Assembly (NCBI RefSeq): GCF_000155735.2
Contig: NC_020908.1
Location: forward strand, 2,237,001 to 2,301,000
Direction of reading: 5' to 3'
Origin: Octadecabacter arcticus 238
Lineage (GTDB): Bacteria; Pseudomonadota; Alphaproteobacteria; Rhodobacterales; Rhodobacteraceae
DNA length: 64,000 bases
Shown: piece after piece, positions 5,512 through 59,507 of the stretch
Numbering within the stretch: position 1 is the stretch's first letter
How the letters are laid out: each line of letters opens with the position of its first letter
Notes under the pieces: model-generated
Told to the model about the DNA's origin: nothing
Databases searched by the model: none
What the model saw: only the letters and a program-made list of their open reading frames with translations
Program-made: the position numbers and the translations under genes

Positions 5512-5560
5512 TCAAAAATATCCCGGGGAGCGCGCAGCGCGGGGCAGCGCCCCCCCCCCC
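5512..5560 (+). repeat. Shared intergenic motif with G-rich hairpin, copy 1
   Basis: TCAAAAATATCCCGGGG at 5512-5528 is followed by GC-rich self-complementary sequence (GCGC, CAGCGC, then GGGGCAGCGCCCC) and a C10 run. The same 17-base core occurs at 9104-9120, again just after a gene end and again leading into a G-run hairpin. It lies between convergent dsbB and the Lrp gene, where a bidirectional terminator or a dispersed repeat would be expected. The function is not known to me. Confidence 0.55.
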
Positions 5561-9103: not shown

Positions 9104-9150
9104 TCAAAAATATCCCGGGGGGGGGGTCGCATTGCGACGGGGGCTGGCCC
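9104..9150 (+). repeat. Shared intergenic motif with G-rich hairpin, copy 2
   Basis: TCAAAAATATCCCGGGG at 9104-9120 is identical to 5512-5528 and runs into a G10 tract. A self-complementary GTCGCATTGCGAC hairpin follows (stem GTCGC/GCGAC), and then GGGGGCTGGCCCCC. It lies 24 bases after the ocd stop, consistent with a terminator or a dispersed intergenic element. The rest of the gap before gyrA (to 9277) shows no gene. Confidence 0.55.
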
Positions 9151-16345: not shown

Positions 16346-20709
<4,364 letters not shown>

Positions 20710-20852
20710 TCATCCCCAATACGCACTTGAACGCCTCGCATCTGGCTCGTGCGAATATGGGTATTAGTAGGTCTGTGGTGACGGCAGGTCCAGCCCTGTC
20801 CCCAACTGACGTGATCAGTCGCAATCCAAAGTGCCCGCACGAAACTGAACGA

Positions 20853-21287
20853 CTACCGGCTGACGCCGGTAGGTTCCCTTTTTGAATGTAATTCAAGATA
20901 CTGAAGTATGACAGCGTCAGTGACATTGCCGCTGGTTGTTGAGAAAAATCCGCGAGCCCAAAACCGCTGGCCCCAGTACCGTTTGCGCAGTTCGGGAAAC
21001 TCGCGCTGTATCTTATAAGACGAGCGTCCCTTGATCCGCATCATCACCTTTGACAAAGCTATCTGAGGCGGGACCGATATGAACATGTGGACGTGATCGG
21101 TCGACAATACGCCCGTCTCAATATGCACGCCAAGTTCTTGGCATGTTTGGATAATGGTTTCACGGATACGCTCACGCATTTCACCGCGCATAACTTTGTA
21201 TCGGTATTTTGTTGTCCAGACGACGTGAAATCGGTGATAAAATTTGGTATGGCTTCCTGTGGAATAGATCATAATCTTCCCTCTCAT
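20853..21287 (-). CDS. tnpA: IS200-type Y1 (HUH) transposase
   Basis: An intact 144-residue Y1 transposase of the IS200/IS605 family, which cuts and joins single-stranded DNA. The HUH motif is His65-Val-His67 (DHVHMF), the catalytic tyrosine is probably Tyr130 (ILQYLEL), and the family motifs FHVVWTTKYRY and VMMRIKGRSSY are present. The start shown (ATG at 21287) lies inside a long inverted repeat; the ATG at codon 6 is an alternative. This is the only intact transposase for this element in the window and could serve copy 1 in trans. Confidence 0.9.
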   Translation of the reverse strand: MRGKIMIYSTGSHTKFYHRFHVVWTTKYRYKVMRGEMRERIRETIIQTCQELGVHIETGVLSTDHVHMFISVPPQIALSKVMMRIKGRSSYKIQREFPELRKRYWGQRFWARGFFSTTSGNVTDAVILQYLELHSKREPTGVSR

Positions 21288-21333
21288 TTTTAAGACCCTT
21301 ACCGCTTCGCGGGGTCTTAAAAATGAGAGGGAA
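21277..21333 (-). promoter_or_regulatory. Long hairpin over the tnpA start, copy 2
   Basis: The 22-base arms at 21277-21298 and 21312-21333 repeat the structure seen at 3864-3920 and again enclose the first codons of tnpA. Conservation in both copies, including full base pairing of both arms, suggests it matters for expression control of the transposase, as known for IS200. Confidence 0.68.
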
Positions 21334-21343
21334 GATTATAGTA

Positions 21344-22534
21344 TACTCCCGCGCCTGAATTGACCTGAGGTTTTCCCCTCAAATCACTTTGTATTCCTTG
21401 AGCGATATGACGCGGAAGTTGTCGGTGACGGTGTCGCGGAACTCTGGCTATTTTTCTCGCAGGGTCTTGCGGAAGAAGTCGAAAATGGCCTCTGTGAATT
21501 GGTTGAACGTTGCATAGTGCCGATTGTGGGTGACCCATTTGTGCATAACACCCCAAAGACGCTCGATCGGGTTGAGGTGCGGGGCATATGCTGGCAAGAA
21601 ATGCAACTTCACCCGACGTTCTGGGCTGTCCAGCCATGGCTGTAGTATCTTGGCATGATGATAGCGGGCATTGTCGACAAAGACGTGGATGGCCGTCTTG
21701 GTTTGGTTGTTGCGTTCCAACTTTTCCAGCATCTGTCGGGTTGTCTGGGCATTGATCTTCTCGCCTTCCACAAAGGTGAACTGGAAAGTCTCAAGGTCAA
21801 GCGCGCCCTGAATGTTGAGCCGCTTGCGCCCTGATGTCGCCTTCAGGGCCGTCTTTTGTCCCTTGGGGAACCAACCATGGGCGGGGCGGCTCTGGTGTTC
21901 GGGGTGGACAGCGTCCGAAAAGACAACCATCTCATCTGCGGCCAACCCGTTCATCAGGGCCTCATATTTGGCAATAAACGCAGCCTGCTTGGCTTCATCG
22001 GCCTGTGCAGGCAGCAATTGTGGTTTCTTATACGCGAACCCCAGGCGGCGCATCAGCTTGGCGGCTCCCGACGTGCTGTAGTTTTGGTCGCACTCGGCTA
22101 GAACATAGGCACAGACCTCATCGGCATTGCGGGCAGGCTGCGCGGTGAAATGGGCTCTCACCGCCTGCTCTTGCACGACGGACAAATGACCCTGACGCTG
22201 GCTGTAGTCCTTCAGACCGAAAAACGATAGTCCCACACCGGCAAAGGCAAATCGCCACTCCGTCAAAACTGTCGGGCCAATATCCAAAATCCGGCAAACC
22301 GTTCCGGCGTCTTCTCCTGCGTCCAAAAGAAGAAACGCGCGCCCGTTTCCAAACAAGGGCGTCAACTTTGCGGCGGCGGCAAAGCGCTTCAAGTGCTATG
22401 CGCTGCTCGTCGGATAAGGAGACTGTTTTGTATTGCTTGCTCATAAACTCAAAATACAGACTGAACCGCCTTTGGCCATGCGACGAAGTGAATCGCAGGC
22501 CCAAAATCGTCAGGTCAATTCAGGCGCAGGAGTA
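21344..22534 (-). mobile_element. IS630-type insertion sequence A (1191 bp), nested
   Basis: The terminal inverted repeats are TACTCCCGCGCCTGAATTG at the left and its complement with one mismatch at the right (ending GGAGTA at 22534). The target is a TA dinucleotide, now at 21342-21343 and 22535-22536. Comparison with the uninterrupted copy 1 (sequence ATAGTACATTACG) proves the insertion point and the TA duplication. It carries one transposase reading frame, now broken. Both the TA target and the transposase motifs fit the IS630/Tc1-mariner group. Confidence 0.9.
21379..22444 (-). pseudogene. IS630-type transposase, frameshifted and truncated
   Basis: The probable original start is the ATG at 22444 (MSKQYKTVSLSDEQRIALEAL). 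The frame is lost near 22345, where a GC-repeat indel separates LVWKRAR from AFLLLDAGEDAG. The long remaining frame (22392-21448) holds the catalytic core: Asp in VVFSDAVHPEH, Asp in HVFVDNARYHHAK and Glu in HLNPIERLWG. A TAG then replaces what looks like a TGG codon after TLREK, removing about 22 residues (PEFRDTVTDNF to the end). Two lesions make this copy unlikely to be active. Confidence 0.85.
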
Positions 22535-22573
22535 TACATTACGCTAAAGCGGACCGGCTGGAAGCCGGTGGCT

Positions 22574-23368
22574 TTAATCCCGTTTGTGGAAAGTGAACGC
22601 CGTTCCGCGACGGGGATGCCGCCATATCTCTGGATCTCTCGAAAGGCGCTCTAGGCGCCGATCGCCAGTTTTCCGTCTCGTGCTGGGCCCTCGGTTCGGG
22701 ATCGCGCAGTACGTAGCCGCGGCCCCAGACGGTTTCGATGTGATTGCCCCCCCCGTCGCCTCCGTCAGTTTCTTACGCAGCTTGCAGATGAACACATCGA
22801 TAATCTTCAACTCAGGTTCATCCATGCCACCATACAGATGGTTTAGGAACATCTCTTTCGTCAGTGTCGTCCCCTTACGCAGGCTCAACAGTTCGAGCAT
22901 TTGGTACTCCTTACCCGTCAAGTGCACAGGGCTACTATCAACCTCGACAGTTTTCGCGTCCAAATTCACCGCGATCACACCGGTTTTGATGATAGACTGG
23001 GCGTGGCCTTTTGAACGCCGGATGATTGCATGAATGCGCGCCACCAGCTCTTCGCGATGGAACGGTTTGGTCATATAGTCATCCGCGCCAAACCCGAACC
23101 CCTTAAGCTTACTTTCAGTTCCGTCTTCGCCAGACAGAATCAGGATAGGAGTTTCGATCCGACTGAGTCTGAGTTGGCGAAGCACCTCATGGCCGTTCAT
23201 GTCCGGCAGATTAATGTCCAAAAGGATCAGGTCGTAATCAAACAGCTTGGCAAGATCGATCCCTTCTTCACCAAGGTCAGTTGAATAGACGTTCAGGTTC
23301 GCATGGCTCAACATCAGTTCGATGCTCTTCGCCGTCGATGGGTCATCTTCTACCAGCAATACTCGCAC
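22574..23368 (-). pseudogene. ctrA: Response regulator CtrA with C-terminal frameshift
   Basis: The cell-cycle/motility master regulator CtrA. The receiver domain (residues 1-115) has the phosphorylation site Asp51 in [10 protein letters not shown], and the OmpR-type DNA-binding domain runs to [15 protein letters not shown] start follows GGAGAAG. At 22747-22754 there is a run of eight G (minus strand). Immediately after, the expected wing sequence [17 protein letters not shown] is encoded in another frame, so one G appears to be missing. The encoded frame instead runs 60 unrelated residues to 22574, inside the IS200 element. The wing that contacts DNA is lost unless the frame is corrected. 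This could be a true mutation, tract slippage or a sequencing error. Confidence 0.85.
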
Positions 23369-23418: not shown

Positions 23419-23433
23419 TTAACCACACGTTAA
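23419..23433 (-). promoter_or_regulatory. CtrA-binding box TTAA-N7-TTAA upstream of ctrA
   Basis: TTAACCACACGTTAA is a perfect match to the full CtrA consensus (TTAA, seven bases, TTAA). It lies 51 bases upstream of the ctrA start codon, between ctrA and sciP. CtrA autoregulates its promoter through such boxes in Caulobacter. The site is intact although the ctrA reading frame is not. Confidence 0.75.
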
Positions 23434-23460: not shown

Positions 23461-23739
23461 TTAAGGTTGTCGATACTTTTGCAATACCGTAGCTTTGAGC
23501 GCCACTTCGCCGTGGTCGCGCACGGCCACTTCCCATTCAGACAGCTCTTCGTCGGACAACCCGTAAGTGTCTTTGGCTTCGTCACGTGACACCAACCCAT
23601 AAGCAACGGCGCGCACGACACAGGCTTTGCGCGATGCAACCCATCGCCGCGTTTCGCGCGGAGGCAGGTCTGCCCGTGTCATAGTGGACCCATCTGGCAA
23701 CTTCACTGATCGTGGCCCGTCTATCTTCTTTAAATACAT
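23461..23739 (-). CDS. sciP: SciP-family CtrA inhibitor (DUF1153)
   Basis: A 92-residue protein matching the SciP/DUF1153 family: MYLKKIDGPRSVKLPDGS at the start, RADLPPRETRRWVASRK in the middle and a C-terminal ALKATVLQKYRQ. In Caulobacter SciP binds CtrA and blocks transcription activation at CtrA-dependent promoters, restricting it to the right cell-cycle phase. Here the gene lies 92 bases upstream of ctrA on the same strand, with a CtrA box in the gap. The pairing of inhibitor and target gene suggests joint control. The reading frame is intact although its partner is frameshifted. Confidence 0.9.
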   Translation of the reverse strand: MYLKKIDGPRSVKLPDGSTMTRADLPPRETRRWVASRKACVVRAVAYGLVSRDEAKDTYGLSDEELSEWEVAVRDHGEVALKATVLQKYRQP

Positions 23740-23869: not shown

Positions 23870-25009
23870 ATGCCCCTTGATCACCCCCTCAATTCGCTCG
23901 GCTTTGCCAAGCCGCCCTCCCAAACCCGCGTCGTCGTTGCGATGTCTGGCGGCGTGGACAGTTCTGTTGTCGCCGCACAACTGGCTGAGGAAGGCTATGA
24001 TGTGGTTGGTGTCACCCTACAGCTCTACGATCATGGTGCGGCGCTGGCCAAAAAGGGTGCCTGTTGTGCTGGGCGCGATATTCATGATGCCCGCCGCGTC
24101 GCCGAAGATATGGGGTTTCCACACTATGTCCTTGATTATGAAAACACGTTTCGGGAAGCGGTGATTGATGAATTCGCCGACAGCTACCTTGCTGGCGCGA
24201 CCCCCGTGCCGTGTATTCGCTGCAACGAACGGGTCAAATTCAAGGACCTGCTGGAAACAGCAAAAGATCTGGACGCCGACTGCATGGCGACTGGGCACTA
24301 CATACAACGCAAAATGGGCGCGCGCGGCGCGGAGCTGCATTGCGCCGAAGATGCCAACCGCGATCAAAGCTATTTCCTGTTCTCCACCAAGCCGGAACAG
24401 CTCGATTATCTGCGCTTCCCGCTGGGACATCTCCCGTCCAAGGATGCCACCCGCGAATTGGCACGCAAATACGGGCTGGCGCTTGCAGATAAACCCGACA
24501 GCCAAGATATCTGTTTCGTTCCCAACGGCAATTACGCAGCGGTGATCGAAAAACTGCGCCCCGGTGCGGCGGAACCCGGTGATATCGTCGACACAGACGG
24601 TTCAGTTCTGGCGCAGCATCGTGGCGTCATTCACTACACCATCGGACAACGCCGTGGCCTTGGCATCGGTGGGTTGGCCGATCCGCTGTATGTGGTAAAG
24701 CTGGACGTGGACAAGAAACACGTGATCGTTGGCCCCAAAGAAATGCTGACCACCCGCACGGTGCCTGTGCGTGAAATCAACTGGCTGGGCGATGACGCGT
24801 TCGATGCGGTGGCTGAACGCCACATCTCTGTCAAAATCCGGTCCACCAAACCCCCGATGGAGGCGATCGTGCGTCCCTTGTCAGCTACAACTGCCGAAAT
24901 CGAACTGCTCACACCCGAAGAAGGCGTCGCCCCCGGGCAAGCTTGCGTGTTTTACGACAACGACAGCAGCCGGATCTTTGGCGGCGGCTGGATTTGGCGC
25001 GGGTATTGA
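23870..25009 (+). CDS. mnmA: tRNA-specific 2-thiouridylase MnmA
   Basis: A 379-residue enzyme that adds sulfur to U34 of tRNAs for Lys, Glu and Gln. The ATP-binding PP-loop SGGVDSS is near residue 26, the catalytic cysteine lies in [12 protein letters not shown], the second active-site cysteine is in SQDICFVP, and the motif [11 protein letters not shown] is typical of the family. It is divergent from sciP. Length and motifs are normal. It is the third tRNA-modification gene in this half of the window but is not physically linked to the others. Confidence 0.96.
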
Positions 25010-51053: not shown

Positions 51054-52103
51054 ATGGGATTGTTTATTCTGCGCCGCCTCGGATTGATGATACTTACGGC
51101 GTTGTGCCTAACCTTCATCGTCTTTTGGCTTACCAACCTTTTGCCGAACCTCGAAAAACTCGCCAAAACCCAAGGCAACGCCCGCATGTCGGACGAAGCC
51201 GTGGTAAGCTGGCTTGAGAACCGTGGATACGGGCAGCCCACATTGATCAAATACGGTGAATGGCTCGGCGTGTTGCCCGGCTACGTGATCGAAGGTCAGG
51301 ATGGTACCGTGCGTGCACGCTGTGCTCCGGTAGGTGCCGAGGTCGATGATACCACACCCGCATTCTGCGGCGTGCTTCAAGGTGACTGGGGACAATCCAC
51401 AGTCTTTAGGAACCCTGTCAGCGAAATTATTGCCACACGGCTTGGCCTGACGGGTAAGTTGATGGGCTTTGTTTTGCTTCTCATGATCCCGGGCGCACTG
51501 ATTATTGGTGTGCTGGCGGGGATGCGTGAAGGGTCACGGCTTGATCGTGGTCTGTCAACGGTATCTATCATGTCGACGGCGACGCCTGAATATGTGTCCG
51601 GTGTTGTTCTGATCGCTGTTTTTGCCACCCCGACGTTCGGGATGCAATTTTTCAAAGGCACCGCGACAAGCGCCATGGACAATGCAACCTTCGAGAATTT
51701 CCTTTTGCCTGTCGTGACAATCGCGCTTTATGGCATGGGCTATATCGCCCGTATGACCCGCGCATCCATGACCGAAGTGATGACCGCGCAATACGTCCGC
51801 ACCGCCCGCCTTAAGGGTGTGAGCTTTACCAACATTGTCATGAAACACGCCCTGCGCAACGCATTGATCGCGCCGTTTACGGTCATCATGTTGCAAGTGC
51901 CATGGCTGCTCAACGGCGTTGTGATTGTTGAAACCTTGTTTAACTACAAGGGCTTCGGCTGGACGCTTGTACAGGCGGCCTCGAACAATGACATCGAATT
52001 GCTTTTAGGCGTCTCGGTGGTCTCGGTGTTTGTGGTGCTCTTCACGCAGCTGATATCTGACGTCGGCTATGTGTTCTTAAACCCACGCATTCGCATCTCT
52101 TAA
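51054..52103 (+). CDS. Peptide-type ABC transporter permease (DppB-like)
   Basis: A 349-residue inner-membrane permease with an N-terminal anchor helix (FILRRLGLMILTALCLTFIVFWL). A periplasmic loop contains three cysteines (ARCAPV, AFCGV). The binding-protein-dependent transport domain includes the EAA-like coupling motif RTARLKGVSFTNIVMKHALRNAL near residue 250. The loop between helix 1 and 2 is about 95 residues, normal for DppB. It pairs with the next gene to form the channel. Confidence 0.93.
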   Translation: MGLFILRRLGLMILTALCLTFIVFWLTNLLPNLEKLAKTQGNARMSDEAVVSWLENRGYGQPTLIKYGEWLGVLPGYVIEGQDGTVRARCAPVGAEVDDTTPAFCGVLQGDWGQSTVFRNPVSEIIATRLGLTGKLMGFVLLLMIPGALIIGVLAGMREGSRLDRGLSTVSIMSTATPEYVSGVVLIAVFATPTFGMQFFKGTATSAMDNATFENFLLPVVTIALYGMGYIARMTRASMTEVMTAQYVRTARLKGVSFTNIVMKHALRNALIAPFTVIMLQVPWLLNGVVIVETLFNYKGFGWTLVQAASNNDIELLLGVSVVSVFVVLFTQLISDVGYVFLNPRIRIS

Positions 52104-58367: not shown

Positions 58368-59507
58368 TTAGCGGGTAGCCAAAGCGTCGCGCAGCACCGA
58401 CAGCACAGTATCGGCGGGGACGTCTGCTGTCATGAACGCGTCGCCGATTCCACGGGCCAGAATGAACCGCAGCTGACCATCGACAACTTTTTTATCCTGC
58501 CCCATCAACGCCAACAGCGCGTCGGCATCCGGCAGGGCGCCATTGATGTCGGCCAGATCAGTCTTCATGCCCATATCTTTGAGGTGGGCACGCACGCGGC
58601 TGGGGTCTTCTTGACTGCACAGACCCATCCGCGCTGACACTTCAAACGCAAGGGCGCAGCCAATCGCCACGCCTTCGCCGTGCAAAAGCCGATCACCATA
58701 TCCTGTCGCGGCCTCAAGCGCGTGACAGAATGTGTGGCCGAGGTTGAGAAGCGCGCGGTCGCCCTGTTCGGTTTCATCGCGTTCCACGATACGGGCTTTC
58801 ATTTCAACGGATCGCTTGACCGCCCTGACCCGCGCCGCAACAATCTTATCCGCGGATAAGGTGTTCGTTAACAAAGGCTTAAGGTTTTTACCCTCAATTT
58901 CAAGCCATTCAAAAAACGCGACGTCCCCCAACAGGCCATATTTTACGACTTCGCCGTAGCCCGACAAAAAGTCCCGCGTCGTGAGCGTGTCGAGCAAGGA
59001 CGTGTCGGCCAGAACCAACGTCGGCTGATGAAATGCGCCGATCAGGTTTTTTCCGTTTGGCGAATTGATCCCAGTTTTGCCGCCCACAGAGCTATCGACC
59101 TGTGCGAGCAGCGACGTCGGTATCTGCACGAACCGCACGCCGCGCCGCACTGTGGCGGCCGCAAAGCCCACCAAATCGCCAATCACCCCGCCCCCAAAGG
59201 CCACCACGACATCGCCGCGTTCTACCTTTTGGGACAGGAGCCATTCAACAGTTTGTTTAAGAAACGGCCAGCTTTTGGTACCTTCGCCCGCAGGCAGCAC
59301 GAGAGCGTCACAGGCAATTCCTGAAGCAGCAAGCCCAGACTTCAGCGCGTCAAGATGCAGGGCCGCGACGTTTTCTTCGGTCACGATCACCACGCGTGGG
59401 CGTTTCAGGAATGGCATTATCCGTTCGCCGGCCTGCGCCAGCAATCGCGGCCCGATCACCACGTCATAGGCACGACCGGGGAGATCAACATGGATGGTTT
59501 CAATCAT
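58368..59507 (-). CDS. aroB: 3-dehydroquinate synthase
   Basis: A 379-residue NAD- and metal-dependent enzyme, second step of the shikimate pathway. Motifs are VVAFGGGVIGDLVGFAAATVRRGVRFVQIPTS-type sequence around residue 105, DSSVGGKTGIN, the NLIGAFHQP loop, and the zinc ligands in RALLNLGHTFCHALE and LHGEGVAIG. It overlaps aroK by four bases, so the two shikimate genes are coupled. Confidence 0.96.
   Translation of the reverse strand: MIETIHVDLPGRAYDVVIGPRLLAQAGERIMPFLKRPRVVIVTEENVAALHLDALKSGLAASGIACDALVLPAGEGTKSWPFLKQTVEWLLSQKVERGDVVVAFGGGVIGDLVGFAAATVRRGVRFVQIPTSLLAQVDSSVGGKTGINSPNGKNLIGAFHQPTLVLADTSLLDTLTTRDFLSGYGEVVKYGLLGDVAFFEWLEIEGKNLKPLLTNTLSADKIVAARVRAVKRSVEMKARIVERDETEQGDRALLNLGHTFCHALEAATGYGDRLLHGEGVAIGCALAFEVSARMGLCSQEDPSRVRAHLKDMGMKTDLADINGALPDADALLALMGQDKKVVDGQLRFILARGIGDAFMTADVPADTVLSVLRDALATR

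Follow-up and report, generated by a model that had tools for sequence, protein, structure and literature searches.

We present an analysis of the broken ctrA gene of Octadecabacter arcticus 238, which lies in a window of 64,000 nucleotides (the whole stretch of DNA that was analysed). The gene persists as an open frame of 264 amino acids (22574-23368, minus strand) in which 207 CtrA residues are followed by an out-of-frame tail of 57 residues. Taken as a whole, its decay is probably one step in a loss of the CckA-ChpT-CtrA phosphorelay in polar Octadecabacter that followed replacement of the native flagellum. The decay of ctrA and of the relay is well supported, and the flagellar cause is what we infer from three related genomes. 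Pseudogenes as such are familiar; the noteworthy part is that a single relay shows a series of different lesions in genomes whose flagellum has also changed.

The translation leaves the CtrA fold after KKLTEATGG, inside an exact run of eight G (C on the plus strand) at 22747-22754, where alignment with relatives gives nine bases, in codons like GGTGGTGAC, against eight in O. arcticus; the expected wing sequence continues in a second frame past this run. Alignment and protein ends place a second one-base deficit in an A run at 22669-22672, ahead of the conserved C-terminal end, and the old stop (22651-22653), which follows KLAIGA and at which near-identical intact proteins end, now lies out of frame in the third frame. 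The Pfam profile Response_reg is matched to its end (residues 3-112), D51 of the receiver is invariant in 16 aligned sequences and the recognition helix is intact up to KKLTEATGG. Trans_reg_C is matched over profile positions 3-60 of 77, as against 3-77 in the intact protein P0003, and by this profile comparison the winged-helix DNA-binding domain is incomplete. AlphaFold models of the two proteins, both built on shallow alignments and of low confidence (mean pLDDT 48 and 55), give P0003 wing strands at 210-214 and 218-222 and show no such strands in the frameshifted CtrA, the out-of-frame tail of which is modelled as unstructured (pLDDT 25-31); the loss of the wing is accepted because of the sequence comparison, the models being secondary.

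The sequence-only reading had claimed the frame break at the G run, an intact receiver with Asp51 and recognition helix, and a lost wing, all of which were borne out by alignment, by Pfam and by the intact genes of relatives. It had also described a second and weaker frame change; the change is real, and the adjective did not hold, as comparison with near-identical intact proteins shows the second lesion no less plainly than the first. The loss of the normal end is therefore not explained by G-run length alone. Having lost the wing, O. arcticus CtrA should not bind CtrA boxes, and its receiver could still accept phosphate from CckA-ChpT, whose genes are open. At E<=1e-40 it is the single CtrA of the genome, which has nine Trans_reg_C matches. 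Exact G8 runs number 61 in the genome, so that such a run is not rare as such; longer ones in the window, C11 at 5550-5560 and G10 at 9117-9126, stand apparently at or beyond gene ends.

At the same threshold (E<=1e-40) ctrA was detected in 16 of the 19 Octadecabacter genomes, O. arcticus counted, and two genomes that yielded neither ctrA nor mnmA (G011 and G018) are unsampled for it. The 3' end is intact in all 15 other same-genus genes and in all 14 more distant genes whose loci were fetched. Neither O. arcticus lesion occurs in any of the 15 same-genus orthologues, no G run is present at the site in any of them (codons like GGTGGTGAC stand there instead), and their proteins end in the conserved (K/R)(L/I/M/V)A(I/V)(G/N)A. 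The short ctrA of G024, considered as a truncated gene, was rejected, its frame stopping at a contig end.

Among the best 120 of 7,223 CtrA relatives, three are shifted out of the wing (the O. arcticus protein P0001, P0079 and P0102), two (P0077 and P0113) end within the wing, possibly at contig ends, and P0003 and P0004 are intact with one difference in 207 residues from the O. arcticus protein. Over 207 codons ctrA differs from that of the nearest genome, G017, by 32 synonymous changes and 2 nonsynonymous ones, so the breakage is recent. Residue 43, a tyrosine in every one of the 15 other same-genus proteins, is phenylalanine in O. arcticus CtrA (Y43F), and F43 was unseen in the 119 other homologues listed among those best 120. 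With residues 196-264 as query only the O. arcticus protein itself was matched, and relatives with the same tail, which the sequence-only reading had named as counter-evidence, were not found; the tail of P0079 likewise matched P0079 alone. A conserved alternative CtrA tail, tried as a candidate, was rejected on these tail-only searches. P0079 and P0102, CtrAs of other lineages, leave the family frame within one or two codons of the O. arcticus break as judged from protein only; P0102 is labelled Cereibacter sphaeroides and lies on a 3.19-Mb contig. P0016 reads TGGGN in frame at the G8 site, that is, three glycine codons, again as judged from the protein.

The gene is orthologous to its counterparts by neighbourhood. 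An open mnmA (23870-25009, plus strand), recognised by its ORF and by comparison, adjoins ctrA in all 15 other same-genus loci. Between the two lies an open DUF1153 gene (23461-23739, minus strand; Pfam and ORF comparison), whose family we take to be that of the CtrA antagonist SciP, and on the other side of ctrA stands an open gene that is presumably ligA (18454-20706, minus strand); this DUF1153 and ligA arrangement is common to O. antarcticus 307 (G006) and G017. A candidate CtrA-type box, TTAA-N7-TTAA, is found about 65 bases upstream of ctrA (23419-23433), and a motif scan found GTAA-N7-TTAA in each of the 15 other same-genus ctrA promoters, at positions from -62 to -66. The window holds a further exact TTAA-N7-TTAA site at 58868-58882 and, at 51680-51858, an Rfam match to the Ruegeria Cis52 sRNA family (97 bits).

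Beyond the old ctrA stop, an IS200-like element on the minus strand starts after about 50 bases (from 22598 downward). Its end (22535-22598), identified by blastn against a copy in the gene transfer agent (GTA) cluster, encodes approximately the final seven residues of the 264-aa frame, and its remainder (20844-21343) contains a Y1 transposase ORF at 20853-21287. Inside this copy sits a further element (21341-22537, minus strand), which we take to be of the IS630 type, with terminal inverted repeats of 34 nt and a DDE_3/HTH_33 transposase ORF at 21448-22392.

The remaining relay genes, cckA and chpT, are open in O. arcticus. Each was found in 16 genus genomes, for chpT with O. arcticus included and one copy cut by a contig end; G004, G007 and G018 are unsampled for chpT, and G004, G007 and G013 for cckA. 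Only O. antarcticus 307 among the 16 same-genus chpT copies carries an internal stop (G006:C2:2626213-2626827, by comparison with the 15 other copies), which replaces the Lys/Arg codon before (F/L/M/Y)(L/M)R(L/M)AFG, and the CtrA of this strain is intact. Apparent stops in chpT of G010, G014 and G015 and in cckA of O. arcticus (G000), G006, G015 and G017 were rejected as lesions, their positions being upstream of the gene starts. A third genome, G007, yielded no CtrA at E<=1e-40, though its MnmA is 97% identical. Its interval from mnmA to the ligA start has 64% identity to that of O. antarcticus 307, with many indels through DUF1153 and ctrA, and on this alignment its ctrA and DUF1153 gene together are a decayed in-place remnant between an open mnmA and the ligA start. 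The absence of chpT and cckA from G007 was left unused, because the bin has a completeness of 88% and also lacks the main proA, the neighbour of chpT.

A tree of 975 mnmA bases pairs O. arcticus with G017 (support 0.83) and O. antarcticus 307 with G007 (0.97), and it unites all four in a single clade (1.0). In G032, which belongs to the same family outside the genus, open mnmA and ligA lie about 220 bases apart with neither ctrA nor DUF1153 between them, and a FlhA search of that genome gave no match.

Codon changes were also counted along single branches as nonsynonymous/synonymous, in counts that take in spurious antisense frames: cckA has 14/20 in O. arcticus against 5/19 in G017, and chpT 4/1 against 0/0. 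Changes at otherwise-invariant residues number 7 in CckA, 3 in ChpT, 2 in CtrA and 0 in MnmA of O. arcticus, the corresponding figures for G017 being 1, 0, 0 and 0; genomes with longer branches have up to 10 such changes in CckA and 7 in ChpT. For ligA, with 308 codons compared, the own-branch counts are 25/10 in O. arcticus and 2/9 in G017. Relaxed selection on O. arcticus cckA and chpT would agree with the expected direction, but the signal is not specific, ligA and other genes of this genome being raised too.

The O. arcticus GTA cluster (C1:1122000-1141999), compared with O. antarcticus 307 and G017, carries several lesions. A terminase-like gene has a nonsense codon, and a capsid-like gene combines a deletion of 13 bases with a duplication of 10. 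The GTA_TIM gene shows both an IS200-like insertion (with a nested 1.1-kb repeat) and a frame change, and the gene next to it changes frame as well; apart from GTA_TIM, the gene names are our presumption from known GTA order. The counterparts in O. antarcticus 307 and G017 run through, the stop at query residue 6 of the O. antarcticus capsid-like row being upstream of the gene. GTA_TIM was matched in 6 of 7 genus genomes searched, and G016, which gave no match, has an open relay. In its nonsense codon, small indels and IS insertion the O. arcticus cluster is like other degrading GTA clusters; a difference is that the genome paper, in its accessible text, counts GTAs as conserved features of the two Octadecabacter strains (PMC3646047).

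The relay lesions coincide with a second difference between genomes, namely the type of flagellum. FlhA of O. arcticus, O. antarcticus 307 and G007 is 82-95% mutually identical and about 36% identical to the type usual in the genus. Over 19 genus genomes, three have this other type, 14 the genus type (with identity checked for G001, G003, G005, G012, G017 and G018 and the rest assigned by score and profile range), and in two, G008 and G013, FlhA was not found; ctrA is kept in the latter two. The O. arcticus gene of the other type sits on the 118-kb plasmid, one of the three replicons (5.2 Mb, 118 kb and 160 kb) given in the accessible text of the genome paper (PMC3646047). Its flagellar cluster includes an rpoN copy, a sigma-54 activator, FlgT- and FlhF-like proteins, flagellin and export genes; that of O. 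antarcticus 307 has two sigma-54 activator-like genes, and that of G007, read on a 14-kb contig only, shows FlhA and a FlgT-like gene. Scans of the flagellar clusters found CtrA boxes enriched in neither type and more sigma-54-like promoter sites than expected in both. When plasmids were searched for the other FlhA type, nothing at >=60% identity turned up in 472 records. In G027, a member of the same family (C3:2540097-2542075), FlhA is split across two overlapping frames.

For the genes found, relay lesions are present in every one of the three genomes that carry the other flagellar type and in none of the 16 others, in a comparison where the three lesion-bearing genomes are close relatives and the flagellar grouping was made after seeing the data. 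The tracking of lesions with flagellar type is in consequence a strong lead and not a test. G017, the closest relative of O. arcticus, has genus-type FlhA and an open relay, and its place on the mnmA tree implies that the flagellar swap, or a reversal, happened more than once.

A functional tie between relay and flagellum is described in related bacteria. In Phaeobacter inhibens, cckA, chpT and ctrA are among eight motility genes outside the flagellar cluster, and the core function of the Rhodobacterales relay is named as flagellar control in the accessible text of that study (PMC12363192). Likewise, the native flagellar set of Rhodobacter sphaeroides requires CckA-ChpT-CtrA, and its second set was probably acquired horizontally, according to the corresponding text of PMC7277832. 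Both Octadecabacter type strains are described in the accessible text of the genome paper as non-motile although flagellar gene clusters are present (PMC3646047), which is compatible alike with lesions that came first and with a flagellar swap that came first.

The sequence of events that we favour runs as follows. One base lost in the G run removes the beta-hairpin wing after the recognition helix, and a second base lost downstream removes the conserved CtrA C-terminal end, as one part of a phosphorelay that has probably been lost piecemeal across the polar Octadecabacter clade. O. arcticus, O. antarcticus 307 and G007 lack the flagellar cluster typical of the genus, homologues of which depend on CtrA, and carry the other type instead. 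We infer that CtrA lost its main job because the native flagellum was replaced, and with that target gone CtrA would have become dispensable. A second classical CtrA target, the GTA cluster, is wrecked as well in O. arcticus. The lesions of ctrA and chpT would be parallel events. Counter-evidence to such a loss of the relay comes from O. antarcticus 307, whose CtrA is intact and whose GTA cluster runs through. G008 and G013, with ctrA kept though FlhA was not found, and G016, with an open relay though GTA_TIM gave no match, weigh on the same side.

The explanation in which ctrA is a real pseudogene yet a private accident of one strain, part of a general pseudogene load with no tie to the flagellum, is unlikely but deserves weight. 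The genome paper's accessible text gives O. arcticus 411 pseudogenes and O. antarcticus 361, of which about 20% have no link to transposable elements (PMC3646047), and O. arcticus genes unrelated to the relay show an excess of amino-acid change; against it stands the distribution of relay lesions, three of three genomes with the other flagellar type and none of 16 others for the genes found. That the strain's ctrA is intact, one or both bases having been lost in homopolymer base-calling or finishing, is in our judgement quite improbable. Each deficit is indeed a single base in a run (G8 and A4), and near-identical CtrAs in public data (among the best 120 of 7,223) are intact. That the genome was built from Sanger reads, its gaps closed and its sequence polished by hand, as its paper's accessible text reports (PMC3646047), can be entered on the same side, although Sanger data finished by hand also make an error unlikely. 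Against it, a single gene would have to hold two mistakes separated by about 80 bases, and one of these would fall in a run no longer than four. Moreover, 23 G017 frame rows from three sampled regions around ctrA, chpT and cckA were matched in O. arcticus, and the 22 besides ctrA are unsplit, with four short ends, two stops near the start and one row that is probably no gene among them. The 13-base deletion, the 10-base duplication and the IS insertion in the GTA cluster are unlike base-calling faults, and Y43F departs from a tyrosine that all 15 other same-genus CtrAs share.

Two further explanations would leave the gene with a function. A wingless CtrA might act as a phosphate sink or an altered regulator, or frameshifting or transcript slippage might yield some full-length protein; receiver and recognition helix are near-unchanged with few amino-acid changes accrued, and P0079 and P0102 depart from the family frame within one or two codons of the same place on the evidence of protein only. 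Yet the tail is unconserved (searches with those of P0001 and P0079 found only themselves), its end derives from an insertion element, it is modelled as unstructured at pLDDT 25-31 and relatives are without the G run, all of which makes this explanation very unlikely. On/off switching of CtrA in the population by a slipping G run, as the sequence-only reading had proposed, fared worse and has a very slight probability. A run of eight G is prone to slippage, a matter of general knowledge, and the three-glycine-codon variant TGGGN of P0016, known from protein only, is in frame. None of the 15 other same-genus genes has a G run there, however, the second lesion alters the C terminus whatever the length of the G run, and the genome has 61 exact G8 runs. 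The same reading's remark that loss of CtrA is tolerable in Rhodobacterales agrees with the accessible text of two papers (PMC4046655, PMC8116508), the former of which also notes CtrA sites at O. antarcticus quorum-sensing genes. The literature covered on Octadecabacter and roseobacter CtrA, ctrA pseudogenes and phosphorelay loss, in text without supplements, contained no report of the ctrA break.

In Caulobacter, CtrA is the essential master regulator of the cell cycle; in those Rhodobacterales that have been examined it did not prove essential. The O. arcticus system is like the CckA-ChpT-CtrA relay of Phaeobacter inhibens, Dinoroseobacter shibae and Ruegeria sp. KLH11 in having a ctrA ortholog beside mnmA with DUF1153 and ligA, a CtrA-type box at its own promoter and open cckA and chpT; it is unlike them in the cut winged helix and the lost C terminus, with chpT or ctrA broken in two relatives. 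In Cereibacter (Rhodobacter) sphaeroides, the acquired flagellar set is controlled by sigma-54. The same species, with a native set under CckA-ChpT-CtrA beside the horizontally acquired one, both described in the accessible text of PMC7277832, offers a parallel in P0102, the CtrA under its label that is shifted near the same place as that of O. arcticus. The difference is that genus-typical FlhA is absent from O. arcticus and only the other type, which may or may not belong with the acquired C. sphaeroides set, is left.

Natural CtrA losses at differing stages would reveal what selection retains the relay for. For the puzzle of the genome paper, non-motile strains with flagellar clusters, the relay lesions may help to explain the lack of motility, or a CtrA-independent cluster may have made the relay dispensable. 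More tentatively, and at somewhat less than an even chance, parallel and differing lesions would mark the dismantling of the relay, brought about when a cluster gained by horizontal transfer, with sigma-54 activators of its own, took the place of the flagellum under CtrA control; if true, the flagellum would be what keeps CtrA in Rhodobacterales genomes.
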